Of a DNA stretch of 21,928 nucleotides, positions 2,248 through 21,147 are shown in pieces. A program made the translations under genes and the position numbers. The notes under the pieces were generated by a model, which was not told where the DNA came from, made no database searches, and worked only from the letters and a program-made list of their open reading frames with translations. The first letter of the stretch is position 1, and the number at the start of each line of letters is the position of its first letter. Source of the DNA: Candidatus Rifleibacteriota bacterium (GTDB lineage Bacteria; UBP17; UBA6191; JACPRK01); the NCBI GenBank assembly GCA_016213865.1, contig JACQZL010000084.1, forward strand, positions 1-21,928, given 5' to 3'.

Positions 2248-3612
2248 TCAGTGGCCGTGTCCGCCGCCGGTAACTCCGCCGCTGTCGTCGGTCGGAGGAT
2301 TGTCAGCGCCGCCGCCGGTGAGTCCACCGTTGTCATCGCCCGGAGGATCATCAGCGCCGGTGCCGCCGCCGGTGAGTCCACCATTGTCGTCGCCCGGAGG
2401 ATCGTCGGCGCCATTGCCGCCGGTGAGCCCGCCGTTGTCATCGCCCGGAGGATCGTCGGCACCATTGCCGCCGGTGAGCCCGCCGTGATCGTCGCCCGGA
2501 GGATCATCGGCGCCATTGCCGCCGGTGAGCCCGCCGTGATCGTCGCCCGGAGGATCGTCGGCGCCATTGCCGCCGGTGAGCCCGCCGTGATCGTCGCCCG
2601 GAGGATCGTCGGCACCATTGCCACTGTCGTTGCCGCGGTTCCGTCCGTGATCGTCCACTTCCATCTGGCGGATGACCGACGGATCGACCGAGGGGCGGCC
2701 GCCGTGGATTTCGACGTAAGCGACCGTGTCGTTCAAGTGGGTCTCGATTTCGACCTCGATCTCGACCTCGACTTCGGTGTGGCGACGAGTGAAGTCCTCC
2801 ACGAAGGCTCGCACCGAGGTGCGCAGGTTGTCCATTTCGAGAGCGGTGAGACCGGGGATCAACGCGTGGTTCCGATCCAGGCCGTCCAGGAGGCCGTCCT
2901 CGAAGTCAAGCGCCAGCCTCTCCTGGTACTCGAGCGCGGTCGTCGACAACTCGGCGGCGCGCCGGCTCATCCCGGCCAGGTACAGGCCGTGGCGGGCCCC
3001 GTCGTCCGCGGCCGCGCCTCCGGCGTTGCGGAAGGCACCTCGAACGCCGTCGTCGGTCGAGAGATCGTCGGGCATTTCGTGAGAGACGTCCAGACCGGAA
3101 GCGGTCGAGAGACTGGCCAGGATCGTCCGCATTCTGGCCGACGAGAGGCCGCCCTCGGCCAGGGCCAGCCGCGTTGCCATGTGATTGAAGGTCGTGAGGG
3201 GGGCAACCACGGTGGTTCCGGGCGCGACGTCGGGGATGCAGTACGTGACGATACGCTCGGACGGCAGGCTGACGACCTGCTGAGTGGCCTCGTCGCGGTA
3301 GCGGGAGACGTGCACGTCGACCCAGACCGACCCGGAGGTCGTCACGCCCAGCGGCGTGCTGAACCGGCCGTCCGTGCCGGTGTGAGTACTCGCAAGCCGG
3401 TTTCCGCGGTGGCCGGCCTCGACCTCGAAGAACTCGACCTCTGCCTCCATGATCGGCCCCAGGAGGGCCGCGCCCGTGACGACGGCGGGCGTGGACAGGC
3501 TGGCGGAACCAGTTGGGCCTCCGCCTCCACCACCCCCTCCACACCCGGACAGCAGGCTGGCGCACAGGATGAGGGCGGTGACGAACGTCAAGCAATGGCA
3601 GCGCGATAGCAT
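2248..3612 (-). CDS. Lipoprotein with acidic Gly/Asp tandem-repeat tail
   Basis: This is a 454-residue predicted lipoprotein. ATG 3612 was chosen because AAAGGAG lies about 7 nt upstream and it starts a clear lipoprotein signal (lipobox LLSGC, Cys24). The frame is open to 3930, but that extension has no signal. A poly-Gly linker follows Cys24. Residues about 40-120 look like a carboxypeptidase-regulatory-type beta sandwich (TGAALLGPIMEAEVEFF, TDGRFSTPLG). Residues about 130-290 begin APLTTFNHMATRLALAEGGLS, a pattern I recall after such sandwiches in bacterial lipoproteins of unknown function. A short EVEVEIEVEIE run precedes the tail. Residues about 331-449 are seven repeats of GNGADDPPGDDHGGLTG or variants. 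The Asp density suggests cation binding or an extended spacer, but no function is assigned. An intrinsic terminator follows the gene. Confidence 0.88.
   Translation of the reverse strand: MLSRCHCLTFVTALILCASLLSGCGGGGGGGGPTGSASLSTPAVVTGAALLGPIMEAEVEFFEVEAGHRGNRLASTHTGTDGRFSTPLGVTTSGSVWVDVHVSRYRDEATQQVVSLPSERIVTYCIPDVAPGTTVVAPLTTFNHMATRLALAEGGLSSARMRTILASLSTASGLDVSHEMPDDLSTDDGVRGAFRNAGGAAADDGARHGLYLAGMSRRAAELSTTALEYQERLALDFEDGLLDGLDRNHALIPGLTALEMDNLRTSVRAFVEDFTRRHTEVEVEIEVEIETHLNDTVAYVEIHGGRPSVDPSVIRQMEVDDHGRNRGNDSGNGADDPPGDDHGGLTGGNGADDPPGDDHGGLTGGNGADDPPGDDHGGLTGGNGADDPPGDDNGGLTGGNGADDPPGDDNGGLTGGGTGADDPPGDDNGGLTGGGADNPPTDDSGGVTGGGHGH
2266..2622 (-). repeat. 51-bp in-frame tandem repeat array
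   Basis: Five 51-bp units, near-identical to each other, are followed by a 54-bp and a 48-bp variant, all in the reading frame of the lipoprotein. Each unit encodes a 17-residue acidic Gly/Asp/Pro motif. The units at the N-terminal side of the array (high coordinates) are most alike, and those near the stop codon have drifted, for example GGADNPPTDDSGGVTG. Unit lengths are multiples of three, so copy-number changes would keep the frame. Confidence 0.9.
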
Positions 3613-3632
3613 TCTAGGCTCCTTTCGAAGAG

Positions 3633-3654
3633 CTCCCGATCGCTCGATCGGGAG
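3633..3654 (-). promoter_or_regulatory. 10-bp inverted repeat just upstream of the lipoprotein ribosome site
   Basis: CTCCCGATCG and CGATCGGGAG are perfect inverted arms separated by two bases. The block ends 21 nt from ATG 3612, immediately ahead of the AAAGGAG ribosome-binding site. It could be a 22-bp operator for a dimeric repressor or an RNA hairpin that controls translation. Outer GAG/CTC bases can extend the stem across a bulge. The sequence does not say which role applies. Confidence 0.5.
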
Positions 3655-3671
3655 AGGCTCGCGGGCCGTCA

Positions 3672-3695
3672 CCTGCCGGCACTGGGGCCGGCAGG
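3672..3695 (-). promoter_or_regulatory. 9-bp hairpin in the lipoprotein upstream region
   Basis: CCTGCCGGC, a six-base loop, then GCCGGCAGG form a perfect stem-loop about 60-84 nt upstream of the lipoprotein start. There is no T tract on either strand, so it is not a normal terminator. It could be a leader structure or an operator. Confidence 0.4.
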
Positions 3696-4051
3696 CACAA
3701 CGACTCCGTGAATAACTGAAGTTGAGGTCGACCCTTTCTGGAGAACGTGTCGGGTGCAAAGGAAAGCCGCCTCCACTGACCGCCCGGAGGTCGCCAGGGG
3801 CCCTTGGAATCGAAGGTGCCCACAGGAGGTCGCATCCGTGGCAGCTCTCTGCGCTGGACTGCTTGCAGTGTGCTTGCGGCTGGGAGAGTTGATACCGGCA
3901 AACCCGACGGATCGCACACTCTTGGCGCACTTTTCTTCCCGTCGCCGGTGTCGCAGCTTTCTGGGTGTCCTTGCCGTCACGGCGCGCATTCCTTAAGAAA
4001 AGACCTCCACGATGTTGCCGTCATCGACTCGAAGTGCATAAATTCGGCACC

Positions 4052-5209
4052 ATGCTCGAAAATCGCGTGCGTCTCGGTCTCGTTCTCCCTTTCCTGGCCC
4101 TGGGGCTGCTTGCGACGCCCGAGAGGGCCCTCTCCGACGTCGTCCGACTCGAACTGGGGGCGGGGCCCAACCTCGTGTCGCTACCCGAGGCGGCGTACTC
4201 CACGTCCGCCTACACGGCTGCGGCCCTGGCGGCGGACACCGGCGCAGTCCTGGTCACCCAGGTGGACTTCCGCCCGGGAGAGCGCCCTCATGTCTTCGGG
4301 GCGGGCCTGCGTTCGCCCGACTTCCAGTTCAGTCGTGGACGGCCGGTCCTCGTTGTGACCAGGCGCACCGGTAGCGCCCTGTTGCGGGTCCCGGCGGCCG
4401 CGCCGGCAAGTCTGCCGGAGATGTCCCTGCAACTCCGGCGCGGCCTCAGCGCGGTCGCTGTCCCGGTGCTCGCCGGGGCCCCGAGCTACCTCTCGGCGGC
4501 CGATCTCCTGACTCTCTCCGGTGCCCAGCTCGCCATCCGCACCCGGATCGAGCCTGCCACCCGACGGAGCGTTTTCGAGGTCTTCATCCCGGCTCCGGGG
4601 CAGTCCGGTTTCCGACTCGAGCCCGGCCACGGCTACATCCTGTCGGCAGTGCGGACGCCCGAGACGACGGTGTTTCCGCTCTATCGGGACGTCGATGACG
4701 ATGGTCTTCCCGACGACGTGCAGGCAGTCAAGGGGCTGTCCGGCGGCGCCCCGGGCGACACCGACGGCGACGGCCTGTCGAACCTCGCGGAGCTTCACAT
4801 AGGCACCGATCCGGGTCGGTCCGACACGGACGGCGACGGTACCTCGGACGAGCTCGAGTTGGCGAACTACAGGGACCCGGGCGATCCGGCCCCCTCCTTT
4901 GCCCGCGAGGCCTATCCGATCTTTCTCAACCGCTGCGTGCCGTGCCACGAGTCCTCCGGCAATTCCGCTTTCCCGGACGACGGCTGGGCCGCGACCACGG
5001 CCGAGGTGAGCTATCGGAACATCGGGCAGGTCCCGGTGCTGGATCGCGCGCAGCCCGACCGCAGCCTCCTGCTCCTCAAACCCCTCGGTCTCGTGAACGG
5101 CGGCGTGGCCATGGGGGGCGGCACCATGGTGATCTTCACCTCTGGCACGGCGGACCCGGACTACCAGACACTCCTGAACTGGATCCGGGCAGGCGCGCTC
5201 TTCAATTGA
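4052..5209 (+). CDS. Exported monoheme cytochrome c with thrombospondin-3-like Ca-binding repeats
   Basis: This is a 385-residue protein. ATG 4052 is preferred because it begins a signal peptide (MLENRVRLGLVLPFLALGLL..., cleavage near ALS-D29). The frame is open to GTG 3965, but that extension is basic and has no signal. No Shine-Dalgarno is seen before 4052. Residues about 30-210 are beta-rich without a recognised fold. Residues about 214-270 hold Asp-rich thrombospondin type 3-like repeats (DVDDDGLPDD, DTDGDGLSNLAEL, DTDGDGTSDELE), a known calcium-binding motif. Residues about 283-385 form a c-type heme domain with CVPCH (Cys295, Cys298, His299). It ends YQTLLNWIRAGA, as in cytochrome domains of planctomycete and acidobacterial proteins. 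Methionines in GGVAMGGGTM could be axial ligands. It is probably a periplasmic or surface electron carrier; no partner is proven. Confidence 0.85.
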   Translation: MLENRVRLGLVLPFLALGLLATPERALSDVVRLELGAGPNLVSLPEAAYSTSAYTAAALAADTGAVLVTQVDFRPGERPHVFGAGLRSPDFQFSRGRPVLVVTRRTGSALLRVPAAAPASLPEMSLQLRRGLSAVAVPVLAGAPSYLSAADLLTLSGAQLAIRTRIEPATRRSVFEVFIPAPGQSGFRLEPGHGYILSAVRTPETTVFPLYRDVDDDGLPDDVQAVKGLSGGAPGDTDGDGLSNLAELHIGTDPGRSDTDGDGTSDELELANYRDPGDPAPSFAREAYPIFLNRCVPCHESSGNSAFPDDGWAATTAEVSYRNIGQVPVLDRAQPDRSLLLLKPLGLVNGGVAMGGGTMVIFTSGTADPDYQTLLNWIRAGALFN

Positions 5210-5877: not shown

Positions 5878-7308
5878 ATGCAGATGAACTTGACTAGACG
5901 GAGTTTCCTTCGCGGACTTGCAGGTGGAGCCGCCGTGATCGTCGGACCCGGCTTCGTGGGGCGATGGACTGCCCAGGGTTTGACCCTCCCCGGGCCCCAG
6001 GTCCTTCGGTTCCACGTGACCGATGCGCTCAAGGGGATGGTGACCGACAACTCGATCAACAGCGCCAAGTGCTACTTCTGGACCTTCCGGGAAGAGAGCC
6101 TGGAGGTCGAGGTGCCGGGCCCGCTGATCTACACCGCCGTCGGGCAGCAGATCGACCTCAGCGTCACGAACGACCTGGACGAGCCTCATGCCTTCTTCGT
6201 CCCCGGGATGTTCGATACCGGCCCCATCGCCCCCGGGCAGACGTTCACCGGTTCGTTCACACCCACGGTGGCCGGCTCGTTCCTCTACTACGATAACCTG
6301 AACGCGCCGGTCAACCGCGTGATGGGCCTGCACGGCGCCATGGTCGTCATGCCGGCCACGCCGGCACCGGGCCACCGCTACACCCCCTACTCGGCGCCCA
6401 CCCTGGCCGTCCAGAAGCTCTTCGACGACCTGGGCGCGCAGCCCTGGTGGCCGGGCCTGGCCTGGGAGGAGGGGGACTCCGCCACGTCCACTCCGCCCTT
6501 CCGCCAGCACGTGTGGGTGCTGCACCAGGCCAGTCCCAACCTCTTCAGGGAGGTGGGCAGCCTCGCGCCCGGGGTGCTGTACGACCCGCAGGCTTTCATC
6601 GACGCGTTCACGAACGACCCGTTCACCCCGGTTCCCAATAACAACCGGACTCCTCAGTACTTCACCATCAACGGTCAGTCCGGGCACTTCGCCCATGACA
6701 ACCCGGTCATCTGCCCGATGCACCGCGTCGGCGAGCCGGCCGTGGTCCGCATGTTGAACGCGGGGCTGTGGACCCATTCGATGCACCTGCACGCCAACCA
6801 CGAGTACGTGATCGGCGTCGACGGGGTGCCTCAGAGCAGCCTCATCTGGATCGACGTCTTCACTCTCCTGCCCATGCGGACCGTCGAGTGGCTGGTCCCG
6901 TTGATGCGGCCGCCGGATATCCCCAATCAGCGGGGCATCGGCCGGGCGGACCCGGGTCTGCGCACTCTGGCCGGCGGCAGCACGTGGCCACCCGCCGAGG
7001 AACTGGTCATGCAGATCCCCGGCCCGGGGCAACGGAGCGGGCAGGATCAGAACGGAAACCCCATCGACCTGGCCGTGGAAATGGCGCCGCTGTGCTACCC
7101 GATGCACGACCACAGCGAGCCGTCGCAAACGGCCCAGGGCGGCAACTACAACTGCGGGCTCATCTCGGGCCTCAACTTCATCGGAGACCGCAACCAGCCT
7201 CAGGGCGTCGTGACCTTCCCAGGAGAGCTCACGACCATGGCCTTGCACGAAGGCGGGCCGGAGGCGACCGGACCGGCAGCGGGCCCCGCGACTCGATTCC
7301 ACGGGTAA
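5878..7308 (+). CDS. Tat-exported multicopper oxidase-like protein (motif 3/4 half)
   Basis: This is a 476-residue protein. GGAGAGGG precedes ATG 5878. The N-terminus is a twin-arginine signal (TRRSFLR, residues 6-12, then a hydrophobic stretch), so it folds before export. Two cupredoxin-like domains are visible, about 45-165 and 255-440. Domain 1 lacks copper ligands: the usual His-x-His sites read HAFF and YYDN. Domain 2 has H300-SM-H303-L-H305, the spacing of the family's HPxHLH motif, and H410-D-H412 where the family has HCH. The type 1 copper Cys is therefore replaced by Asp411, although both His remain. This chain alone has only four of the eight His needed for a trinuclear copper centre. 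The next gene, 71 bp away, carries the other four. It probably forms a heteromeric oxidase with that protein; the substrate is unknown. Confidence 0.85.
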   Translation: MQMNLTRRSFLRGLAGGAAVIVGPGFVGRWTAQGLTLPGPQVLRFHVTDALKGMVTDNSINSAKCYFWTFREESLEVEVPGPLIYTAVGQQIDLSVTNDLDEPHAFFVPGMFDTGPIAPGQTFTGSFTPTVAGSFLYYDNLNAPVNRVMGLHGAMVVMPATPAPGHRYTPYSAPTLAVQKLFDDLGAQPWWPGLAWEEGDSATSTPPFRQHVWVLHQASPNLFREVGSLAPGVLYDPQAFIDAFTNDPFTPVPNNNRTPQYFTINGQSGHFAHDNPVICPMHRVGEPAVVRMLNAGLWTHSMHLHANHEYVIGVDGVPQSSLIWIDVFTLLPMRTVEWLVPLMRPPDIPNQRGIGRADPGLRTLAGGSTWPPAEELVMQIPGPGQRSGQDQNGNPIDLAVEMAPLCYPMHDHSEPSQTAQGGNYNCGLISGLNFIGDRNQPQGVVTFPGELTTMALHEGGPEATGPAAGPATRFHG

Positions 7309-7379
7309 TTCCACGGTCGCACCCTGAGCCACGGTCAGAAACCGGCCCCGTCCATGGAGGGGCCCGAGGAGAACTCAAC

Positions 7380-8789
7380 ATGTCCTTCAGCAACCCGGGA
7401 TTCACGATCCCACGCCGCTCGGTCGTCGGCATGGAGGCCCACTGGATCAAGATGTGGGACCCTCCCACCGCAAGTCCCGTCACGCCCGAGCTCCTGACCC
7501 CGACCAACCCCGTCCCGGAGGTCATGGCGGCCGCCGGCCACCAGCTTCCACCCTCCGTTCCCCACACGGTCCAGCGCGACCTCATGCACGGCGTGCTGCT
7601 TCCCGCGTGGGACGGCGCCAAGCAGCTCGCCTTCTTCCTCTTCGCGGACGGCGACAACCCCGCGACCGTGCTGGGCACCTACCCGGCCGCGACGCTTCGC
7701 GTGCCGCGCGGGGTGGTCTTCCACGGCGAGACCTCGGGCAAGGGGCCTCCCCCGCACACCATCCACTGGCACGGCATTGAGCCGACGCCGATGAACGACG
7801 GCGTGGGGCACTGCTCGATGGAGATAGGCAAGTACACCTACCAGTGGCAGCCGAACTTCATGGGTTCCTACTTCTATCACTGCCACCGGAATACCGTGCA
7901 GCACTTCGAGTTCGGTCTGTTCGGGTTCCTGATCATCATGGCGCCCGACGCCTACTTCTCCTCCATCGCCAGCACCAACCCGGACGGCAGTGTCGTCCTG
8001 AACAACATCCCGATCGGCGCGAGCTCCGACGGGAAGTTCCGCACCCAGGCCAACACCTCCAAGTACCCGGCGTTCCCGGGCTTCGTCCCCGGAGATCCGG
8101 TCTTCGGCGTGGCGGGCCCCAACGGCCTGGGCGTCGGATCGCCCCACGCATGGACCGTCCCCTACGACGTGGAAGCCCTCTGGGTGTTCGACGACCGCGA
8201 TTCCATCTGGAGCGACCTGGCGTCCAACGCCCGGACGACCTTCCCGGCGGCGGGCAGCATCCCGGGAGTCAATGACCAGTTCAACCTCAACGCCGGGGTC
8301 AACGGCTTCTTCGCGTTCAACGACTACCACGCCGACTACTGGTTCGTCACGGGTGTGCCCGTACGGGCCCACCTCGGCGAGACAGGACAGATCGACGCCA
8401 ACGTGGTCGTCCCTCCCGCGTTGAACAGCGGCATGACCGGCATGCAGGTCTCGGTCAATGCCCGCGTCGGCCAGACCATCCTGGTGAGGGCCCTGGATGC
8501 GGCGTACAACAGTGTCGAGCTCCAGTTCCCGGTCGATGTCCTGATCACCGCCTGGGACGGCCGTTCGCTGGGCGTGCCCCCGTTCGGACTCTACAGCGAG
8601 CCGCGCTTCGTGCCGGCCGGACAGGCCATCGAGATGAGCACCGCGCGGCGTTTCGACGCCCTGATCCGGGCTACCACGCCGATCAACTCCTTCGCTACCG
8701 CGAAGTTCATCGACACCCGAGGGCAGATCCCAGGACAACCGCAGCGGGTCGTGATGACGGCTCAGGTTCCGTTCGTGATCACCGCCTGA
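7380..8789 (+). CDS. Multicopper oxidase-like protein without own signal (motif 1/2 half)
   Basis: This is a 469-residue protein with GAGGAGAA ahead of ATG 7380. The N-terminus (MSFSNPGFTIPRRSVVG) has no hydrophobic export signal. The N-terminal cupredoxin contains H126-TI-H129-W-H131-G and H167-C-H169 with H175 and L180. That is four trinuclear-type His plus a plausible type 1 site (H126, C168, H175, axial L180). There are two more residues than usual between Cys168 and His175. The second half (about 300-469) looks like a cupredoxin without ligands. These motifs complement those of the preceding gene product. Together they supply HWH, HCH, HLH and HDH, the eight His of a complete multicopper oxidase. 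It could be exported as a passenger with its Tat-signalled partner (inference). The pair is probably one operon. Confidence 0.83.
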   Translation: MSFSNPGFTIPRRSVVGMEAHWIKMWDPPTASPVTPELLTPTNPVPEVMAAAGHQLPPSVPHTVQRDLMHGVLLPAWDGAKQLAFFLFADGDNPATVLGTYPAATLRVPRGVVFHGETSGKGPPPHTIHWHGIEPTPMNDGVGHCSMEIGKYTYQWQPNFMGSYFYHCHRNTVQHFEFGLFGFLIIMAPDAYFSSIASTNPDGSVVLNNIPIGASSDGKFRTQANTSKYPAFPGFVPGDPVFGVAGPNGLGVGSPHAWTVPYDVEALWVFDDRDSIWSDLASNARTTFPAAGSIPGVNDQFNLNAGVNGFFAFNDYHADYWFVTGVPVRAHLGETGQIDANVVVPPALNSGMTGMQVSVNARVGQTILVRALDAAYNSVELQFPVDVLITAWDGRSLGVPPFGLYSEPRFVPAGQAIEMSTARRFDALIRATTPINSFATAKFIDTRGQIPGQPQRVVMTAQVPFVITA

Positions 8790-8989: not shown

Positions 8990-11900
8990 ATGAGAGCGAT
9001 TCGGTTTACTGATTGTGAGACGTGCGGTTCGGATGCCGGACGGCGTGCAGCTCGGCTGCGGGCGCCGATCCTGTGGTTGGCGGTTGCGCTACTGTCCGTG
9101 GTTTGCTCGCCGGCGGCGCTCGCGCTCGGCAACGGCCAGGCCGCCGGCCTGGTGCTGGGACAGCCAAACTTCACGACGTCCACCCTGGGCGGGGGCGCCG
9201 CGGGCATGAGCCTCCCGTACGGTGTCAGCAGCGACGGTACGCATTTCTTTGTCGGGGACGTCTTGAACAACCGGGTGTTGATCTGGAACAGGATGCCCAC
9301 GGCCGCTGGGACCCCCGCCGACGTGGTCGTGGGACAGCCGGACCTCGTCACGACCGCCCCCGGGCTGGAGGCCGACAGGCTCTACTACCCGTACGGCGTC
9401 AGCAGCGACGGCACTCGCCTCTTCGTCGCCGATCAGTACAACAACCGGGTCCTGATCTGGAACCGGATCCCCACGGCCGACGGGGTCCCCGCCGACGTGG
9501 TCCTGGGACAGCCGAGCTTCCTGGCCGGGGGTGCCAACATACCTGCCCGCGGCGCCGCCACCCTCAGCCTCCCGACGGGAGTCTTCTGTGACGGCACGCG
9601 CCTCTTCGTCGCCGACACCCAGAACAACCGGGTGCTGATCTGGAACACCGTCCCCACGCTCTCCGGGACCCCCGCCGACGTCGTCGTGGGACAGCCCAAC
9701 TTCGAGACCGGCAGCCCGAATAGCCCCAACTGCAACGCCCAGACACTGCACGTGCCGTCGGCCGTCTACTCCGACGGCACGCGTCTCTTCGTCTCCGACT
9801 TCGGCAATAACCGCGTGTTGATCTGGAACGTCATCCCGACCAACCACGGGCAGTCGGCCGACCTCGTCCTGGGGCAGTCCGACTTCGCTGGCCTGGCTCC
9901 CAACAACCCCAGTCTGGGTGCCGGCACGCTCAACGGTCCGCACGGCCTCTTCTTCGACGGCACCAGCCTCTCCGTCGCCGATCTCCACAACAACCGCGTG
10001 TTGCTCTGGACCGGCCTCCCCACGGTCAACAAGCAACCCGCCAACTTCGTGCTGGGGCAGGCGGGCTTCGCAAGCGGCCTCGCCAACTCCCCCGCGCTGG
10101 GCGCCGCGAGCCTGTTCGGCCCCTCCAATGTGTACTTCGCCGGCGGCCGGCTCTTCATCGCGGACTACTCCAATAACCGCGTCACGAGCCACCAGCTCCA
10201 GCCGACCGTGGCCCTCGCCTACAACCGCCCTGGCACCGCTTTCCCGGCCGGCCCGCTGACGATTTCGGCGACCTTCTCGGAAGTGCTCGCGACCGTGCCG
10301 ACGGTGGCCGTCGACGGCCAGGGGACGGCCAACGACGTCGCGCCGACCGCGATGAGCCCGACGGCCAATCCGCTGGTCTGGACCTTCGCGGCGACCCTCG
10401 TGTCCGGTGCGGACGGCCTTGCCACGGTCACGATCGCCAACGGAAGGAGCAACGCGGGCTACGAGAACGCCGCGGCCACGAACGCCACCTTCACGGTCGA
10501 CGCGACGGGTCCCGTCGCGACGCTGGCCTTCACCCGCGGCCCGGCTGTCCTGGGCGCCGGCGCGCTCTCCCTCACGGCTACCTTCGACGAGGCGACCGTC
10601 ACCCAACCCACCCTCGCGGTCACCGCCGGCGCCGAGTTCTTCAACGCCCCCGTCCTCCGGCAGGTCAGCGCCACTGTCTTCGCCTTCGACCTGACGGTGG
10701 GCGCCACCGCGACCGCCCAGGCCGGCTCGCCCTATTCGTTGACCCTCTCCGGCGCGTCCGACGCGCTCGGGAACGCGCAGGCCCAGACGGTTGTCAACGG
10801 GACCGTTGACACGGTCGCGCCGCCGGCGCCGGTGCTCTCCTTCAGCAGGGGGCCGGGCTTTGTCGGTTCCGGGCCTCTGACGGTGACGGCCGACTTCGTC
10901 GAGCCGCTCTTGTCGACCGTGGACCCGGTGTTGACCTTCAGTGGCGCCGCGGCCACGGCGGGCAACTTCAGCACGCTGACCCCGGTAGCAGCTCGCGTCA
11001 GCCCGACCCGTTTCGTTTACGACGTGACGGTGCAAGGAGCCCTGCCTCCGGCCGGCGCCGCGTACTCGGCGACCGTCGCGGGAGGCCAGGACCTGGGCGG
11101 CAACGTGCAGGCGCCGGCCGTGCAGAACGGCACGGTCCAGGCGCCGGCCACGCTCGCCTTCGGTGCCCTCTCGGCCCCTGCCAACGTCTCGCTGGGCCAG
11201 ACCTTCAACGCGGCCGTGGTCGTCACCAACCTCGGCGGCGCGACGGCTGTCATCACCTCGACCGCGTTGACCTTCAGCGGCGCAGGCATGACGGCGACCC
11301 CCGCCGCCGGCAACGTCACCACGCTCGCGGGCGGCGCCAGCTCGACGCTCAGCTTCACGGTCACGGCCGCTCTGACGGCGACCCCGGGCGTTCACGAGGC
11401 GACCCTGGCGGTGGCGGCACGGGACGATAGCAGCGGTGCCGACGCCAGCAAGGTCCTGGCCCTGGCGCCCGGCATCAACGTGGAGACCCAGTCGGCCCTC
11501 GCGTTCGGCACCTTCACGGCACCCTCTTTCGTCTTGCAGGGCCAGACCTTCAACGCCTCGGTCGTGGTCACCAACTCCGGCCAGGCGCGGGTCAACATCA
11601 CCTCGGCGGCCCTGACGTTCCTCCCGGGCGGGTTGACCGCGACGCCCGTGGGGTCGAACCCGTCGTCCCTGGACGGCGGCCAGAGTGCGACGTTCAACTT
11701 CGAGGTCAAGGTCGCACTCGACGCCCCGGCGGGCACGCACACGCCGTCGCTGGCGGTAACGGCAGTCGACGCCAACAGCGAGGCCGACGCGAGCCAGTTC
11801 GAAAACCTCTCGCCCACCGTCACGGTCCAGGCCCTGGCGACACTCTCGTTCGGGCCGCTCTCGGCGCCCGCCAAGGTCTCGCAAGGGCAGACCTTCAGCG

Positions 11901-14900
11901 CGGCCGTGGTCGTCACGAATCAGGGACAGCAGACGGCCCGCATCACGTCGACCGCGTTGACCTTCAGCGGCACCGGGCTGACCGCGAGCCCCTCGCAGGG
12001 GAACGCCACTACACTGGCCGGCGGGGTCAGCGCGACGTTCAACTTCTCGGTCACGGCGGCGGGGGACGCGCTCGCGGGCGCTCACCTCGCGACGCTCGCG
12101 GTGCTGGCCGCAGATCCCGACAGTGGCGCCGACGTGAGCGCCACCCAGAGCCTCTCCCCCGGAGTGACCGTGGAGACCCCGGCGGCACTCGCGTTCAGCG
12201 AGCTCACGGCACCCGCGGACCTCGCGCCGGGCCAGACCATCACCGTCAGCGTGGCCGTCACGAACCTGGGACAGGCCATTGCCGACGTCGTTTCGACGGC
12301 GCTCACCTTCAGCGGCAGCGGACTCACGGCCACGCCCTCGCAGGCGAACGCGACCGCCGTGGCCGGCGGAGGCAGCGCCACCTTCAGCTTCTCGGTGACC
12401 GCGGCACCCACGGCAACGGTCGGTGCCCACACGCCGACGTTGGCCGTGACCGCGAAGGACCGCAACAGCGACGCCAATGTGGACAAGACCCAGACGCTCT
12501 CGCCCGCCCTCACGGTAAGGGAGGCCGGAGTGCCGTTCATCTCGAGCGGGGCCACGGCCCCCATCGTGAACGACGTCGCGACGGCCATCACCCTGGCCGG
12601 TGGCGGCTTCACCGGGGTCACGGCGGTCCGTCTGGGCGACCCGGCCCACACGGTACTGACCGGCCTCCAGGTGAGAGACGACGCCAACCTCTCAGCGACG
12701 GTCCCGCGAGGCGTCCTCGCCGGGGACTGGGACGTGGTCCTGACGCGGCCCGCGGGCGACGTGACGGTGGCCGGTTTCAAGTTGACCGTGACGCCGGGAA
12801 TCTCGCTGGTGGTGAGCGTCACGCCGAGGCTGGCGACGCCCGACACGGCGACGGCGATCACCCTGACGGGCTCGGGCTTCACGGGTGCGACCGTGGTCAC
12901 GCTCGATGACGGAACGCGCACCCCGCTCACCAACCTGCGCGTGATAGATGACGGCACCCTGACGGCCACCCTGCCGGCCGGTCTCGCGCTCGGCACTTAC
13001 GATTTCCTCGTCACGACGCCGCGCGGTACCGGTTCGGCCGGCAGCGCGAGGGTGACCGTGGGCGCGGGCCCTGTGGCCGCCGCAGGTGGAGACCTCGAGC
13101 GCCTGGTCACCCAGACCGTCAACCTCGACGGCTCGGGCTCGACGGGGCCTGCAGGCGAGGCCCTGGTCTACCACTGGTCTCTTACTTCCCTCCCCGCGGG
13201 CAGCCAGGTCACTTCGGGCTCGCTCTCCGACAACAACACGAGCACCGCGGCAAGGCCGTCGTTCGTCCCGGATCGCAAGGGTACGTACGTCCTGTCGCTC
13301 GTCGTCAACGTCGGGGGCCTCAACTCGGCACCCGACACGGTGAACGTCAACATCGGCAACTCGACACCGGTGGCCGTGATTGCGGCCTTGCCTGCCGGTT
13401 CCGTCGGGGTCGCCATGGTGCTCGACGGCCGCGGCTCGTCCGACGCCAACGTGGAGGACGTGCTCACCTACCGCTGGAGCTTCCTTTCGGTTCCCCAGGG
13501 AAGCTCGGTGACGGCCGGCTCGATCTCGCCGAACAACACGATCTCCGCTTCCCGGCCCAGCTTCACGCCGGACCTCGCGGGCTCCTACAGGGTTGCGCTG
13601 GTGGTGGACGACGGCACGGCAAGCTCCGTGAGAGTCGAGGCCACGGCCCAGGTCACGGGCCAGGGCAATCAGGTCCCGACGGCCGACCTCCAGATCTCCG
13701 CCCTGACGGGAGGCCCGCGGCTCGTCGAGCTGGACGGCAGCGGCTCCAGGGCCTTCACGCCCCCTGACGGCAACCGGATCGTGACCTACGCCTGGAGCCT
13801 GGTCCAGAAGCCCGCGCAGGCCGCCGCGTTCAGTGCGACGACGGCCCGCGCCCGCTACGAGGCCAGAGTGCAAGGGACGTATCAGTTCTCGCTCACCGTG
13901 ACCGACCAGGCCAGCCAGACCGCGACCGCGACCAAGTCGATCGTCGTGGATGACGTCAAGCCGCGAGTGCACCTCGAGGACCATCTCGTGGTCATCCTGC
14001 CGCGGACCGGCGCCCCCGCCGGCCTGGTCACGACCGCGATCGTCCAGCTCGACGGTCGCCTGTCGGACGACGCCAACGGCGACACGATCAGCTACCGCTG
14101 GAGCGTCGTCTCGGCCCCCGTGGCAACCTCCGGGTTGATCCCGCAGGCCGAGCTCACGAGCCCCGTGGCAACGCTGCACTTCCCGACTGACCTCGACCCG
14201 ACCAACACCTTCCTGCTGGGTGCGGGGAGCTACGTGGTCCGGCTGACGGTCTCGGACGGCGACGAGGCAGAATCCGACGAGTTCGAAATCACGGCCCTCG
14301 ACCCGTTGGTGTTGCTGCCCTGGGCCGACGCGGGCGTCAACGAGACCTACCTGGTCCGGTTCCTGTCGCCTGGCGTGATCGCGGAAACGGTGCCCGATCC
14401 AACGGTGGCCGGAGGGGTCAACAACCTCAGAGACTTCGTGCGCCTCGACGGGCACGAGAGCGTCGATCCTCGTGGCCGGACCCTGACCTACCGGTGGAGC
14501 GTCGCTCGCGACAGCCAGGGCAACCCGCTGATCCCCACCGGGGCCCAAGTGCCGGTGCTGGCGGGCGCCACAACTCACCTCCCCACCTTCGTTCCGAGCG
14601 TCGAGGGTCCGTACACGTTCGAGTTGATCGTCAACAACGGGGCCTTCGACAGCCGTCGGGACCGCGTCACGGTGACCATCCTGTCGGCCGAGGCCCAGAA
14701 CCACCGGCCGCATCCCGAACTGGTCGTGGAGGACCTGGCCCACGCGGACCCGAGAACCCCGCTCGACGCGCTGCGCTCGTTCACGGTGGGAGACACGGTC
14801 CAGTTGAACGCTTCGACCTCCTCCGATCGCGACGCCGAGGACCGCACCTCCGGGCTGCGTTACCAGTGGCGGCAACTCGAGGGTGAGAGCGTGACGCTGA

Positions 14901-15913: not shown

Positions 15914-15937
15914 CCAAAGTCGGCTGTGACTCCAAGT

Positions 15938-15992
15938 GAGGCGGCGCCTCGAAGCTATCCAGACCGTTGGTGGCTCCTCGAGGCGCCGCCTC
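15938..15992 (+). promoter_or_regulatory. 15-bp inverted repeat with alternative folds before the first peroxidase gene
   Basis: GAGGCGGCGCCTCGA (15938-15952) and TCGAGGCGCCGCCTC (15978-15992) are perfect inverted copies separated by 25 nt. Each arm can also fold alone: GAGGC-GGC-GCCTC on the left, TCGAGGC-GCC-GCCTCGA on the right. One long hairpin and two short ones are therefore mutually exclusive. The block lies between the giant gene's stop and the peroxidase ribosome site near 16003. No T run follows. It may be an attenuator-like or protein-binding site. Confidence 0.5.
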
Positions 15993-16016
15993 GACTCTGA
16001 AAAAGGCAGGTTCGAA

Positions 16017-18551
16017 ATGACGCACTCCCCCTCCCGTCAAGGGCTCCCGGCACACTTCCTTCGTCTCGCAGTGCTTCTGGTCGGGCTAGCGTGGCTCTGC
16101 GCGCCCGCGCGGGCGGGCTCCCGCGTCAAGACGCTGCAGGGCGTGGTCATTCCCCCGCCGTCCAATCTGGCAACCTACGTCCGGAACCAGACGGCGGCGA
16201 TCCAGCTCGGCAAGGCCTTCTTCTGGGACATGCAGGTGGGAAGCGACGGCATCCAGGCCTGCGCAAGCTGCCACTACCAGGCGGGTGCGGACATCCGTCA
16301 CAAGAACCAGGTGAATCCGGGTCTGAGGAACAGTACACCGGATCGGACCTTCCAGAAGTGGGCGCCGAACGTCCTGATCAAGAAGGGGGACTTCCCCGTC
16401 ACGACCAATGAAGTGGTGGGGTCTCAGGGGACCTTCCAGTCCGTCTTCACGAGTGTCACCAGCGGCAGCGCCGTGGACGGCCGTACGCCCACGACCGACC
16501 CCGACGGGTTCCGGGTCGCAGGCCAGAACACCCGACGAGTGACGGCCCGGAACTCGCCCTCCGCGGTCAATGCGGTTTTCAACTCTTTTCAGTTCTGGGA
16601 CGGCCGGGCGAACAACACGTTCAACGGCACCAACCCGTCGGGCCCGGGAGCCGGGACCTATCCGATCGTCTCGAATGCGACCGGGACCCTGACCACCGTC
16701 AATGTGAGCATCTTCAACGCCGGTCTGGCTTCCCAGGCGACGGGGCCTCCGTTGGCCGACGAGATGTCCTGGGCCGGGCGGACCTGGCCCGACATCGGCA
16801 AGAAGATGCTGACCCTGAGGCCGCTGGCCAAGCAGAAGGTCTCTCCGACGGACAGTGTTCTGGGTGCCCTGGCCGCGCCGACCACGGGCTTGACGACGAG
16901 CTACCTGGCGTTGATTCAGGAGGCCTTCGAGCCTGCATGGTGGAGCTCGGCCGAGAGTGTCGTCGTGCTGGGCAGGACCTGCACCCAGGTGGAAGCGAAC
17001 TTTCCGCTCTTCTGGGGACTGGCCATCCATCTGTACGAGGCGACCCTGATCGCCGACCAGACCCCCTTCGACCGGTTCGACACGGGCGACCTGACCGCCC
17101 TGACCATCGCCCAGCAGAACGGCCTCTTCCTGTTCAATGAAAGGGCCAATTGCAGGAACTGCCACGGCGGCCCCCTGCTCTCCGATGCCATGGGCGGCGG
17201 CATCCCTGACCCTGTCAGCTCGTTCGACAACATCGGAGTCAGACCGGCTTCCGACGATGTCGGGGCGCAGGCGGTCTTCGGCGCCGGATTCGAGGGCGCG
17301 TTCAAGGTCCCCGCGCTGCGCAACGTCGAGCTGACCTGGCCCTACTTCCACAACGGCGGCATGGAGACCCTCGATCAGGTGATCGACTTCTACAACCGGG
17401 GAGGGGACGTCGCCAACACGAGCATCTCCCCACTGGGTTTGACGACTCAGGAAAGGTCCGACCTCAAAGCGTTCCTGCTAGCCCTCACCGACGAGCGCGT
17501 GCGCTGGGAGTCGGCGCCCTTCGACCATCCGGAGTTGTTGCTTCCCCATGGTCAGGCAGGGAACACCAACTGGTTGTCGGGTGTCGGCGGGCTCGGGGCC
17601 CCGGACGGCTTCGTGACTCTTCCTGCCGTGGGCGCCGGCGGCAGGGCCGCCGCGGGGCTGCCGCCACTCAAGGCCTTCTCGACCCGGGCCAGGCCTCAGA
17701 CGGACGCCGATTTCGATCTGGATGGGGCCGGCGACATCACGATCTTCCGAGCCAGAAGCGGCATGTGGCATACCCTCCGCTCCAGCGACGGGTTGCCGAC
17801 GGCGGTGCAATGGGGCCAACTCCTGGATGAAGTGGTGCTCGCCGATTACGACGGCGACGGCAGGTTCGACCCATCCATCTTCCGGCCCTCGAAGGCGACC
17901 TGGTACATCCGCAACTCTTCAGACGGATCCCACAGGATGATGGAGTGGGGAGCGGCCAGTACCGATCCCGCCACCGCCGACGTCCCGGTCCCGGGTGATT
18001 ACGACGGGGACGACCAGGCTGACCTCGCGGTCTGGCGGCCCCAGACAGGCACCTGGTACATCCGCCGCTCCTCCGACGGTGGGCACAGGATGGTCCAGTA
18101 CGGGTCGGGGAGCTCTCCCTTCACTCGCGACCAGCCGGTTCCCGCCGATTACGACGGCGACGGGACGACCGATATCGCAATCTGGCGGACCGCCACCGGG
18201 ACCTGGTACATCCGGCGCTCCTCGGACGGCAAGGAGACGGTGACCCAGTGGGGAGCCGTCAGCGACGAGGTGGTCCCGGGCGACTACGACGGCGATGGCA
18301 AGGCGGACCTCGCGGTCTGGAGGCCCGGCGGTGGGACCTGGTACGTCTTGCGGTCCTCCGACAGGGGCAACACCCAGGAGCACTGGGGAGCCTCGACCGA
18401 CATCCCGGTCCCATTGGACTTCGACGGTGACGGCAAGACGGACCTTGCGGTCTGGAGGCCAACCACGGGGAACTGGTACATCCTGCGTTCCTCCGACAAG
18501 GTCCAGGTTCAGCGGGAGTGGGGGATTCTGGAAGACGAGCCACTGGAGTGA
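16017..18551 (+). CDS. Diheme cytochrome c peroxidase-type protein fused to six FG-GAP-like repeats (1)
   Basis: This is an 844-residue protein. ATG 16017 has AAGGCAGG upstream and starts a Sec signal (cleavage near ARA-33). Residues about 40-555 are a diheme peroxidase/MauG-family domain. The N-terminal heme motif is CASCH (Cys82-His86) and the second is CRNCH (Cys379-His383). The typical segment YFHNGGMETLDQVIDFYNRGG contains Met449. The gap between the two hemes is about 300 residues, longer than in classic bacterial peroxidases. Residues about 562-844 are six repeats of about 45 residues built on DYDGDGKADLAVWRP and GTWYIRRSSDG, FG-GAP/VCBS-like Ca-binding propeller modules. By family, the domain reduces peroxide or oxidises a partner with its two hemes. 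The repeats suggest extracellular binding. It is the tandem paralogue of the next gene. Confidence 0.9.
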   Translation: MTHSPSRQGLPAHFLRLAVLLVGLAWLCAPARAGSRVKTLQGVVIPPPSNLATYVRNQTAAIQLGKAFFWDMQVGSDGIQACASCHYQAGADIRHKNQVNPGLRNSTPDRTFQKWAPNVLIKKGDFPVTTNEVVGSQGTFQSVFTSVTSGSAVDGRTPTTDPDGFRVAGQNTRRVTARNSPSAVNAVFNSFQFWDGRANNTFNGTNPSGPGAGTYPIVSNATGTLTTVNVSIFNAGLASQATGPPLADEMSWAGRTWPDIGKKMLTLRPLAKQKVSPTDSVLGALAAPTTGLTTSYLALIQEAFEPAWWSSAESVVVLGRTCTQVEANFPLFWGLAIHLYEATLIADQTPFDRFDTGDLTALTIAQQNGLFLFNERANCRNCHGGPLLSDAMGGGIPDPVSSFDNIGVRPASDDVGAQAVFGAGFEGAFKVPALRNVELTWPYFHNGGMETLDQVIDFYNRGGDVANTSISPLGLTTQERSDLKAFLLALTDERVRWESAPFDHPELLLPHGQAGNTNWLSGVGGLGAPDGFVTLPAVGAGGRAAAGLPPLKAFSTRARPQTDADFDLDGAGDITIFRARSGMWHTLRSSDGLPTAVQWGQLLDEVVLADYDGDGRFDPSIFRPSKATWYIRNSSDGSHRMMEWGAASTDPATADVPVPGDYDGDDQADLAVWRPQTGTWYIRRSSDGGHRMVQYGSGSSPFTRDQPVPADYDGDGTTDIAIWRTATGTWYIRRSSDGKETVTQWGAVSDEVVPGDYDGDGKADLAVWRPGGGTWYVLRSSDRGNTQEHWGASTDIPVPLDFDGDGKTDLAVWRPTTGNWYILRSSDKVQVQREWGILEDEPLE

Positions 18552-18607
18552 TCCGAGCGCAAACGGACCGGGGTGCGGGCAGCGGCCTCACCCGAATGTC
18601 CCCGATT

Positions 18608-18612
18608 GGAGG
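18608..18612 (+). promoter_or_regulatory. Shine-Dalgarno GGAGG that decides the second peroxidase start
   Basis: GGAGG touches the ATG at 18613 directly, too close to serve it. It lies 9 nt from the in-frame GTG at 18622, a normal distance. This favours GTG 18622 as the start. The two starts differ by only three residues. Confidence 0.55.
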
Positions 18613-18621
18613 ATGCCGGCA

Positions 18622-21147
18622 GTGAAACCAGGAACGATCTCGAGAGCAATCCTCGGGTTGATGGTCGCTTCCCTCTGGGTGGCCAGCTACCCTCCCGCTT
18701 CATGGGCCCAGTTCGTCAACGTTGCGAGGGGACTTCAGGGGGTCGCGGTTCCCAGGCCTTCCAACCTGGCCACCTACGTTCGGGACGAGGCGGCCGCAAT
18801 CAAGCTCGGCAAGGCCCTCTTCTGGGACATGCAGGTGGGAAGCGACGGCATCCAGGCCTGCGCGAGCTGCCACTTCCAGGCCGGTGCGGACGTCCGCTTC
18901 AAGAACCAGGTGAACCCGGGCTCGAGAGCGAGCACTCCCGACACCACCTACCAGATGTTGGGCCCGAACGCCTTGCTCCGAAAGACCCACTTCCCCGTCA
19001 CCACCAACGACGTCGTGGGGTCGCAGGGGACCTTCCGGGCCGACTTCGCGGGCATCGTTCCCGGCAGCTCCGTGGATGCTCGCGTTCCGGCGGCCGACTC
19101 CGACGGCTTTCGCGTCTTGGACCAGAACCTGCGCCGAGTCACCTCAAGGAATGCGCCCACCACGATCAACGCGGTCTTCAGTTGGGTCACTTTCCTGGAC
19201 GGGCGGGCCAACCACGTCTTCAACGGCACCTCGCCCAGCGGCCCGGGCAATCCGGCCTATCTCCCGTTCTCCAATGCGACCGGGACTCTCTCTCAAGTGA
19301 CTGTGGCCATCACGAGCGCCAGCCTGGCTTCCCAGGCGATGGGTCCCCCCCTGGTCGACGAGATGTCCTGGATCGGGCGGACCTGGCCCGAGATCGGAAG
19401 AAAGATGCTCAGCCTGACCCCGCTCGCCAAGCAGAAGGTCTCCGCGACGGACAGCGTCCTGGGCGTCCTGGCCGCGCCGACCACGGGCTTGACGACGAGC
19501 TACAGGGCCCTCATCGAGCAGGCCTTCGTTCCGTCGTGGTGGGACTCCGCCGAACCTGCCGTCGTCGACGGCAAGACCTACACCCAGATGGAAGCCAACT
19601 TCCCCCTCTTCTGGGGACTGGCGATCCAGCTCTACGAGGCCACCCTGATCTCCGATCAGACCCCGTTCGACCAGTTCATGGCGGGGAACCAGACGGCCCT
19701 GACCGAACAGCAGCAGCGCGGCCTCACCATGTTCAACGTGCGGGCGGGGTGTGCCGCCTGTCACGGAGGCCCCTTGCTGGGCGATGCAGCGGAGCCGCCT
19801 CCGGCGTCACCGTTCTACAACATCGGCGTCACGCCCCCCTCTCACGACATCGGTGCCGCGGCGGTCTTCGGCGTCGGTCTGGAGGCCGCGTTCAAGGTCC
19901 CCGGCCTGCGGAATGTCGAGCTGACCGGCCCGTACTTCCACAACGGCGGCATGGCAACTCTCGACGAGGTACTCGAGTTCTACGACAGGGGAGGAGACTT
20001 CCCCAACAACAACATCGTGCCCCTCCGCCTGGCTCCCCAGGAAGAGGCCGATCTGATGGCCTTCTTGAGGTCGCTGACCGACGAGCGGGTCCGATGGGAG
20101 TCGGCACCCTTCGATCACCCGGAGCTGGTGATCCCCAATGGTCACGCTGGAAACGGCGCCTGGGTGGCAGGCGCCACCGAGCTCGGGGCCCTGGACAGCT
20201 ATCTGACCCTCCCGGCCGTGGGCGCCGGCGGCCGCGCCGCCGCCGGACTGCCTCCGCTTCAGCCCTTCCTCAGCGGCGCCAAGTACAAGACAGCCGGGGA
20301 CTTCGACTTGGACGGGCGCAGCGAGCACACAGTCTGGCGCCCGAGCAACGGCACCTGGTACACCGTTCGTTCGTCCGACGGGGGCGCGAGCATGCTGCAA
20401 TGGGGAGACTCGAATGACCTGCCGGTCCCCGAAGACTACGACGGTGACGGAAGGGTCGATCGGGCGGTCTGGCGCCCCGCGGACGGGAACTGGTACATCC
20501 TCCGGTCCTCCGACGGGGGCCAGACCACCGTCCCGTGGGGGACAGGAACCGCCTTTGCCACCCCCGACGTTCCGGTCCCGGCCGATTTTGACGGGGATGG
20601 GCTCGCGGACCTCGCCGTGTGGCGGCCTTCCAATGGGACCTGGTACGTTCGCTGTTCGTCCGACGGGAGTCACACGGTCGTCCAGTACGGGACGGGCACC
20701 TACCTTGCCGAACCCGACGTCCCGATCCCGGCGGATTACGACGGCGATGGGAAAGCGGACTTCGCGGTCTGGCGGCCCTCGACTGGGACCTGGTACATCT
20801 ACCGCCACACCGACCGGACGGAGAGCGCCCACCAGTGGGGGACCCCGGGCGACAAGCCCGTGACCGGGGATTACGACGGCGACGGGACGACGGACCTCGC
20901 GGTCTGGCGACCCTCGAATGGGAACTGGTACATCCGCCGGTCCTCCGACCTGCTGGTCACCCGGGAGCAGTGGGGGGCCCCGACCGACACGCCGGTCGCT
21001 GCCGACTTCGACGGCGACGGAAAGTCGGACCTCGTGGTCTGGCGACCTTCGTCGGGCAGGTGGTACGTGCTCCGCTCCTCCGACCAGGTCCACACGCAGT
21101 ATGACTGGGGGACCGACGGTGACGTGCCGCTGACCAGACAACCCTGA
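18622..21147 (+). CDS. Diheme cytochrome c peroxidase-type protein fused to six FG-GAP-like repeats (2)
   Basis: This is an 841-residue paralogue of the preceding gene, 70 bp downstream and probably co-transcribed. GTG 18622 is preferred on Shine-Dalgarno spacing; ATG 18613 is the alternative. A Sec signal follows (ILGLMVASLWVASYPPASWA-Q). The first heme motif is CASCH (Cys80-His84) and the second CAACH (Cys377-His381), with the family segment YFHNGGMATLDEVLEFYDRGG. Conserved blocks such as LFWDMQVGSDGIQACASCH and PAVGAGGRAAAGLPPL match the first copy almost exactly, indicating tandem duplication. Residues about 556-841 are six FG-GAP-like repeats (DYDGDGKADFAVWRPSTGTW). The frame is open upstream to 18295, but that part overlaps the previous gene out of frame and is not coding. 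Both hemes and the probable Met ligand are kept, so both copies look functional. Confidence 0.9.
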   Translation: MKPGTISRAILGLMVASLWVASYPPASWAQFVNVARGLQGVAVPRPSNLATYVRDEAAAIKLGKALFWDMQVGSDGIQACASCHFQAGADVRFKNQVNPGSRASTPDTTYQMLGPNALLRKTHFPVTTNDVVGSQGTFRADFAGIVPGSSVDARVPAADSDGFRVLDQNLRRVTSRNAPTTINAVFSWVTFLDGRANHVFNGTSPSGPGNPAYLPFSNATGTLSQVTVAITSASLASQAMGPPLVDEMSWIGRTWPEIGRKMLSLTPLAKQKVSATDSVLGVLAAPTTGLTTSYRALIEQAFVPSWWDSAEPAVVDGKTYTQMEANFPLFWGLAIQLYEATLISDQTPFDQFMAGNQTALTEQQQRGLTMFNVRAGCAACHGGPLLGDAAEPPPASPFYNIGVTPPSHDIGAAAVFGVGLEAAFKVPGLRNVELTGPYFHNGGMATLDEVLEFYDRGGDFPNNNIVPLRLAPQEEADLMAFLRSLTDERVRWESAPFDHPELVIPNGHAGNGAWVAGATELGALDSYLTLPAVGAGGRAAAGLPPLQPFLSGAKYKTAGDFDLDGRSEHTVWRPSNGTWYTVRSSDGGASMLQWGDSNDLPVPEDYDGDGRVDRAVWRPADGNWYILRSSDGGQTTVPWGTGTAFATPDVPVPADFDGDGLADLAVWRPSNGTWYVRCSSDGSHTVVQYGTGTYLAEPDVPIPADYDGDGKADFAVWRPSTGTWYIYRHTDRTESAHQWGTPGDKPVTGDYDGDGTTDLAVWRPSNGNWYIRRSSDLLVTREQWGAPTDTPVAADFDGDGKSDLVVWRPSSGRWYVLRSSDQVHTQYDWGTDGDVPLTRQP

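Follow-up and report, generated by a model that had tools for sequence, protein, structure and literature searches.

In the parts of the literature cited here, the trinuclear copper site of multicopper oxidases lies between domains of one chain or between identical subunits (PMC13151041, PMC3600357). Two-domain enzymes are described as trimers in which each site is built where domain 1 of a subunit meets domain 2 of its neighbour (PMC13151041); for bacterial six-domain enzymes, the reported positions are the interface of domains 2 and 3 for the trinuclear site and domain 2 for the type 1 site (PMC3600357). A different arrangement is encoded on contig JACQZL010000084.1 of a Candidatus Rifleibacteriota bacterium (assembly GCA_016213865.1), of which positions 1 to 21,928 of the forward strand (21,928 nucleotides) were analysed and are called the window below. 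Two genes, P1 (5878..7308, + strand, 476 amino acids) and P2 (7380..8789, + strand, 469 amino acids), are separated by 71 bases and each encode two cupredoxin domains, with one half-site in each protein. The chemistry of the superfamily is already known and the interface is of a known type; the placement of the half-sites on two different proteins appears to be new. No description of a multicopper oxidase that is split or heteromeric and whose subunits share a trinuclear site was found in the open-licence literature, judged by titles and the starts of abstracts. With a probability of about 0.84, P1 and P2 are obligate partners in a single secreted enzyme, a type C-like two-domain multicopper oxidase whose cluster lies between P1 domain 2 and P2 domain 1.

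The motifs of the two proteins are complementary. The original prediction, made from the letters of the window, held that the first protein has only HLH and HDH, that the second has only HWH and HCH, and that together they make up the eight histidines of a trinuclear site; the translations agree, down to the residue numbers. In P1 the half-site is confined to domain 2. H300-H305 (HSMHLH; 6775..6792, + strand) holds the trinuclear-site residues H303 and H305 along with a vestigial type 1 position, H300, and H410-D411-H412 (HDH; 7105..7113, + strand) supplies two more trinuclear-site histidines with Asp in the position of the type 1 Cys. In P1 domain 1, EPHAFF and YYDN occupy the places corresponding to His motifs. 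In P2 the half-site and a type 1 site are found only in domain 1, and domain 2 has no copper motif of this kind. H126-H131 (HTIHWH, within PHTIHWHG; 7755..7772, + strand) contains the type 1 residue H126 and the trinuclear-site residues H129 and H131; a second segment (7878..7919, + strand) contains the trinuclear-site residues H167 and H169, the type 1 ligands C168 and H175, and the axial L180. That C168 is the sole type 1 Cys of the pair, with Asp411 in its place in P1, had been predicted and is likewise seen in the translations, and the type 1 positions H126, H175 and L180 are additions to the earlier motif list. They were assigned by analogy to solved relatives, and the assignment of H167, C168, H169, H175 and L180 draws in part on what we take the roles of these residues to be. 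A likely ribosome-binding site, GAGGAG (7366..7371, + strand), was read in the sequence 8 bases upstream of the P2 ATG.

Profile matches place both proteins in the multicopper oxidase superfamily. PF07732 (Cu-oxidase_3) matches P1 at residues 78-159 with 38.6 bits and P2 at residues 96-189 with 40.2 bits, both over the cut-off of 21; PF07731 matches P1 at residues 263-318 with 16 bits, under its cut-off of 20.4. The eight trinuclear-site histidines in four HxH motifs and the type 1 site that mark the superfamily are present in the pair and in neither protein alone. Three-domain laccases and CueO are poor models for either protein: the best NCBIfam match, TIGR01480, scores 37.9 bits for P1 and 28.8 for P2 against a cut-off of 478.95, and the CueO model scores 19.8 and 18.7 bits against 525. 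The copper nitrite reductase (NirK) model TIGR02376, whose cut-off is 296.3 bits, scores P1 at 18.6 bits and gives no P2 match at E up to 1. By sequence, the closest solved structures to P1 are 2zwn and 3g5w, both two-domain enzymes, and those to P2 are 9cck and 3gdc, with 2zwn and 3g5w lower down. We take 2zwn (a metagenome laccase) and 3g5w (a Nitrosomonas europaea blue copper oxidase) to be type C.

Type C two-domain enzymes are the closest described relatives. As in P1/P2, their type 1 copper is in domain 1 and their trinuclear site lies between neighbouring subunits, according to the cited account (PMC13151041), and they share with the pair residue-level matches and the fold of the P2 half. 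Type 1 ligands in the N-terminal domain, which define the type, are found in P2 (H126, C168, H175 and L180, in 47/47 aligned pairs). One gene of a type C enzyme provides both half-sites and the product is a homomeric trimer, whereas P1 and P2 have one half each and have lost the other, P1 from its domain 1 and P2 from its domain 2. Ceruloplasmin and the MnxG/MofA/OmpB enzymes resemble the pair in having cupredoxin domains of which most copper sites are lost and a trinuclear site at one interface; in the bacterial members the 2/3 interface, as described in the cited source, is in the position equivalent to P1 domain 2 against P2 domain 1 (PMC3600357). Each of them is a single long chain, with the type 1 site reported in domain 2; the pair has two chains, and its type 1 ligands are confined to P2 domain 1, the third domain of the pair.

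The division of ligands is maintained across wide divergence. Protein searches at E 0.001 gave 870 P2 relatives and 776 P1 relatives, each among about 8000 scored candidates of which the best 120 were listed, and a scan with the P2 alignment, one genome per species, kept 79 loci of 201 confirmed stretches. Loci L001-L049 form the core family. Ligands were counted in 47 aligned P1/P2 pairs, the pair of the window plus those of 46 core loci (out of 49; P1 is missing from L020 and L037, and P2 is cut in L049). H303 and H305 are His in 47/47 pairs, H410-D411-H412 is kept in 46/47 with a gap in the remaining one, and H126, H129, H131, H167, C168, H169, H175 and L180 of P2 are kept in 47/47, at a mean divergence of 46 percent for P1 and 43 percent for P2. 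H300 is His in only 42/47 pairs, a loosening to be expected if P1 has no type 1 copper. Judged by these alignments, the complementarity of the motifs is not a matter of chance.

The two genes also stay together, which the original prediction had proposed as a check. In 47/49 core loci P1 immediately precedes P2, both on one strand, and the two exceptions, L020 and L037, begin at a contig edge. Hosts named in the records include Geomonas, Citrifermentans, Methanoperedens, Neobacillus, Paenibacillus and Minicystis as well as Nitrospirae, Chloroflexi, Poribacteria and Phycisphaerae, with Geobacteraceae, Methanoperedens, Nitrospirota, Chloroflexota and Bacillota among the host groups; the arrangement is widespread in environmental microbes. 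Some of these groups are metal-cycling. When 16 whole genomes were searched with both profiles, 17/17 strong P1 genes (E up to 1e-30) adjoined P2 by coordinates; these sit in 11/16 genomes, and the other five have weak matches only. The P1 profile alone, at the same threshold, matched in 6/198 genomes of one phylum and in 9/48 genomes of one family, with one genome common to both surveys. All 19 distinct loci found in this way (19/19) have P2 beside P1 and complementary motifs; judged by N-termini, 8 are distant pairs not met before and 11 are genes already present in the first set. Because their selection did not require P2, these loci weigh as evidence of adjacency. On this genomic evidence the P1-P2 pair is a conserved system. 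One Nitrospirae contig carries two P1-P2 pairs in tandem (L016, 4486-12457, + strand).

More distant relatives show the same division of motifs, including pairs in Planctomycetota, Thermoleophilia, Micrococcaceae and Bacteroidota and in one Nitrosomonas metagenome-assembled genome. HCH, HSH or HTH replaces the HDH of P1 in many of them, and the order is P2-P1 in distant pairs of Chloroflexota, Ilumatobacteraceae, Kangiella and Thiomicrorhabdus. The same scan also yielded two-domain enzymes that hold both halves in one chain (L062, L065, L067, L069, L070, L072, L076, L077 and L079), and HDH in domain 2 is seen in single-chain relatives as well.

Natural fusions, a second check raised by the original prediction, were found in Micrococcaceae. 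A Micrococcaceae P1 used as the sole query against 149 genomes matched in 15 of them, at 30 loci (L144 and L148 being one broken gene fetched twice). Twelve of these loci (L132, L134, L135, L137-L142, L145, L146 and L149) have a single open frame, 741-887 amino acids long between stops, in which HQxHxHxNH, PMHCH, HTxHxHG and HCH follow one another, all four motifs in P1-P2 order. The fusions match the pair in motifs and in their order but consist of one gene and have HCH rather than HDH in the P1 half; no publication on them was found. A P2 match, fused or adjacent, is present in 27/30 loci, one of them a broken fusion (L143). With two split genes matching the two halves of one protein in the same order, these genes are Rosetta-stone fusions. 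The earlier description of the gene order as reversed therefore needs qualifying, since more distant, fused relatives have the same order; P1-P2 is also the order to expect if domain 2 of one unit meets domain 1 of the next.

On a 41-row tree fused and split forms are interleaved, and starred branches force at least three changes. The split pair on the plasmid of Arthrobacter sp. FW305-BF8 (L111, 132-5885) lies inside a clade of fusions and may reflect a recent frameshift. A 45-row tree of P2 domain 1 has three groups: the core, a sub-family and the Micrococcaceae split pairs (99/93); the single-chain two-domain enzymes (99/94); and the P2-P1-order pairs with the Bacteroidota and Nitrosomonas pairs (93/88, not starred, where long branches meet). 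Since this tree is unrooted, it is compatible with one or several origins of the split.

These observations suggest a mechanism in which each protein is a two-domain multicopper oxidase unit in degenerate form. P2 would retain domain 1, with its type 1 copper (H126, C168, H175 and L180) and half-site (H129, H131, H167 and H169), having lost the domain 2 site; P1 would retain the domain 2 half-site (H303, H305, H410 and H412), having lost that of domain 1. The two would pair like neighbours in the homotrimeric two-domain enzymes, domain 2 against domain 1, giving one trinuclear site per P1:P2 pair at what was formerly an interface of identical subunits. One site per pair is the simplest reading, given that each protein kept one half-site and lost the other. 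Electrons would enter through the type 1 copper of P2, and oxygen would be reduced at the shared cluster. Type 1 coppers with an axial Leu tend to high potential. Such a pair probably arose when a two-domain gene was duplicated and the copies lost opposite half-sites. The motifs, their conservation, the adjacency, the fusions and the asymmetry of export signals are observed; the P1:P2 complex, its copper, co-export, stoichiometry, origin and substrate are inferred, and the earlier proposal of a cluster between two different proteins gains support from adjacency and the fusions.

Export signals add a further asymmetry. P1 of the window has a Tat (twin-arginine) type signal, TRRSFLRGLAGGAAVIVG (5878..5980, + strand, end approximate), which Pfam TAT_signal scores at 18 bits, below its cut-off of 22.7; the start codon may be the ATG at 5878 or that at 5884. 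P2 has no recognisable signal peptide. Beyond the window, whose two N-termini were read by eye and stand outside the counts, a Tat-type RR motif is present in 66/68 P1 relatives, and the remaining two are truncated at contig edges. A stretch of 13 residues with mean hydropathy of at least 1.6 near the N-terminus occurs in 40/68 P1 and 3/67 P2. These counts come from a plain hydropathy test with heuristic start codons in place of a signal predictor, and they include 11 genes twice. The RR pairs found in 17 P2 are part of a conserved IPRRSV-like stretch. The pair thus shows the pattern of a Tat hitchhiker, with a twin-arginine signal on one partner and none on the other, which suggests that P1 and P2 are exported as a complex: as only P1 has the signal, P2 is probably exported bound to it, if the enzyme acts outside the cytoplasm. 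The Tat system moves folded proteins, which fits export of a preassembled P1:P2 complex. The Streptomyces tyrosinase MelC2, which has no signal, is reportedly exported by Tat on the signal-bearing MelC1, a parallel to P2 and P1 in which a copper enzyme without a signal has a partner with one. MelC1 is a helper that is not known to supply active-site ligands, the role proposed here for P1.

A broader proposal, which we hold with somewhat more confidence than doubt, is that P1 and P2 belong to a class of obligately heteromeric multicopper oxidases, widespread and so far undescribed, that arose from a two-domain enzyme by duplication and complementary loss, and that split and fused forms have both been tried within one family. 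The subunits would have to meet in the cytoplasm, because only one bears a Tat signal, and the site would be assembled before or during export.

Several observations weigh against an obligate two-subunit enzyme or parts of it. P1 and P2 distance matrices correlate at r 0.43, with 0/2000 permutations as high, and such a correlation is expected for any two co-inherited linked genes. No full fusion of the core family was found among the best 120 of 406 matches (E 0.001) to a joined query of 945 amino acids. Three Micrococcaceae loci (L130, L147 and L150) carry a P1-type gene for which no P2 lies within at least 5.8 kb in either direction; the gene of L150 is broken, and the two genomes that carry the lone genes have split pairs and fusions elsewhere. 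Hydropathy below the mark is found in 28/68 P1 too, and those Micrococcaceae fusions whose N-termini were looked at have no clear export signal, so co-export is not general. A linked four-domain P1-P2 model reached a predicted template modelling score (pTM) of 0.83, with low confidence over most of 343-451, the region of the P1 HDH and the linker. The isolated model of P1 domain 2 with P2 domain 1 reached a pTM of 0.37 and was not used. Best Foldseek matches of the linked chain include ceruloplasmin and MnxG, at a root-mean-square deviation of 10-15 Å, and an arrangement in common with these proteins is only suggested by the prediction. Nearly all VIA-align rows of the linked model cover the P2 half only, and the gap over P1 there is uninformative.

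A possible if doubtful variant of the two-subunit enzyme adds a third two-domain unit, an extra P1, an extra P2 or another cupredoxin, that would complete a closed ring like that of ceruloplasmin or MnxG. The trimers described for two-domain enzymes in the cited source (PMC13151041) point in this direction, as do the ceruloplasmin and MnxG matches of the linked chain and the 4/50 core loci (L008, L038, L039 and L047) with a further large multicopper-oxidase-like gene downstream. No such third gene was found in the window or in 46/50 core loci, many of them cut short, and the fusions hold the motifs of two units only, both of which argue against a ring. Less probable still is a reading in which one operon encodes two independent proteins with copper or structural roles, such as electron carriers or a chaperone and an enzyme, and P1 and P2 form no common trinuclear site. 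The three solitary P1-type genes are consistent with separate functions, and the complex is inferred, its interface model reaching the low pTM given above; such proteins would not be expected to keep the eight trinuclear-site histidines as exact halves in 47 pairs, bar one gap, nor do they account for natural fusions in the same order, a P2 without a signal of its own and strict adjacency. The split has next to no chance of being a product of sequencing or assembly error or of gene decay, as occasional frame-broken copies (L019, L042, L143 and L150) are set against intact frames both in the window and in the genomes of isolates (Geomonas, Minicystis and Neobacillus among them), ligands invariant despite 43-46 percent mean divergence, conservation across phyla and a likely ribosome-binding site for P2 itself.

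If P1 and P2 do form one enzyme, a site common to two proteins would make one active centre depend on assembly. The pair would then be a natural system for the building of copper clusters, the change from homomer to heteromer, and Tat export of preassembled copper enzymes. Annotation of single genes is liable to label one half as hypothetical or to count the halves as two oxidases: on the Indioceanicola profundi plasmid NZ_CP030128, which carries one of the distant pairs, P1 is named "hypothetical protein" and P2 "multicopper oxidase domain-containing protein".

The genes around the pairs offer clues to the substrate, which is, at a fair guess, a metal ion or another extracellular electron donor. 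Downstream of the pair in the window are two related di-haem CCP_MauG-type proteins in tandem with C-terminal FG-GAP repeats (15936..18551, + strand, PF03150 64.7 bits and PF13517; and 18295..21147, + strand, PF03150 60.9 bits, a mechanical frame whose true start is further in). Near the core pairs, 50 with the window included, CCP_MauG genes occur at 16 loci (15/49 of those fetched), MofC-like genes at 6, SCO1 at 5 and a large further oxidase at 4, as raw counts with no background rate and with many contigs ending early; for these reasons no substrate is committed to. The large multicopper-oxidase-like genes lie at 12353-17787 in L047, 11866-16938 in L008, 11853-16298 in L038 and 11632-17088 in L039, all on the + strand, and that of L047 has a CopD domain and runs on in a second frame.

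Some neighbourhoods resemble clusters already described. Multicopper oxidase genes of OmpB/MofA clusters occur with SCO1/SenC and a cytochrome, OmpB and MofA being single proteins in the cited account (PMC5566968). The Sideroxydans lithotrophicus cluster Slit_1812-1818 is described as containing SCO1, a cytochrome and three cupredoxin proteins and as higher on magnetite (PMC12016527). At three Geobacteraceae loci (L004, L005 and L012) SCO1/SenC and a periplasmic-binding-domain gene come after the pair, the company that OmpB/MofA keep in the cited account (PMC5566968). L012 resembles both published clusters: alongside P1 and P2 it has SCO1/SenC, and its periplasmic-binding-domain gene contains one haem motif. 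The Arthrobacter plasmid pair (L111) adjoins an Nramp metal transporter and a metal-dependent regulator, close relatives of which were absent from the 89 loci first fetched.

Individual relatives vary in domain content. Many P2 relatives (548-1174 amino acids, for example P0008 and P0262) have extra C-terminal carboxypeptidase-regulatory-like, PKD or other extracellular domains, which P2 of the window does not have. In P0181 (644 amino acids) P1 is joined directly to the last P2 domain, with P2 domain 1 absent and the first His of HxxHxH changed; this protein was not used as evidence.

Other genes of the window encode repeat-containing proteins. A protein of 2307 amino acids (8990-15913, + strand) has NHL, CARDB and PKD-type repeats and ends in a GGGGGGCALDR stretch, a hydrophobic segment and arginines, which resembles a surface sorting tail, presumably of the putative GlyGly-CTERM type. 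Upstream of the pair are a lipoprotein-like protein (2248-3930, - strand) with a terminal tandem repeat of about GNGADDPPGDDHGGLTG and a protein of 414 amino acids (3965-5209, + strand) with bacterial TSP3 repeats and one CVPCH haem-c motif.

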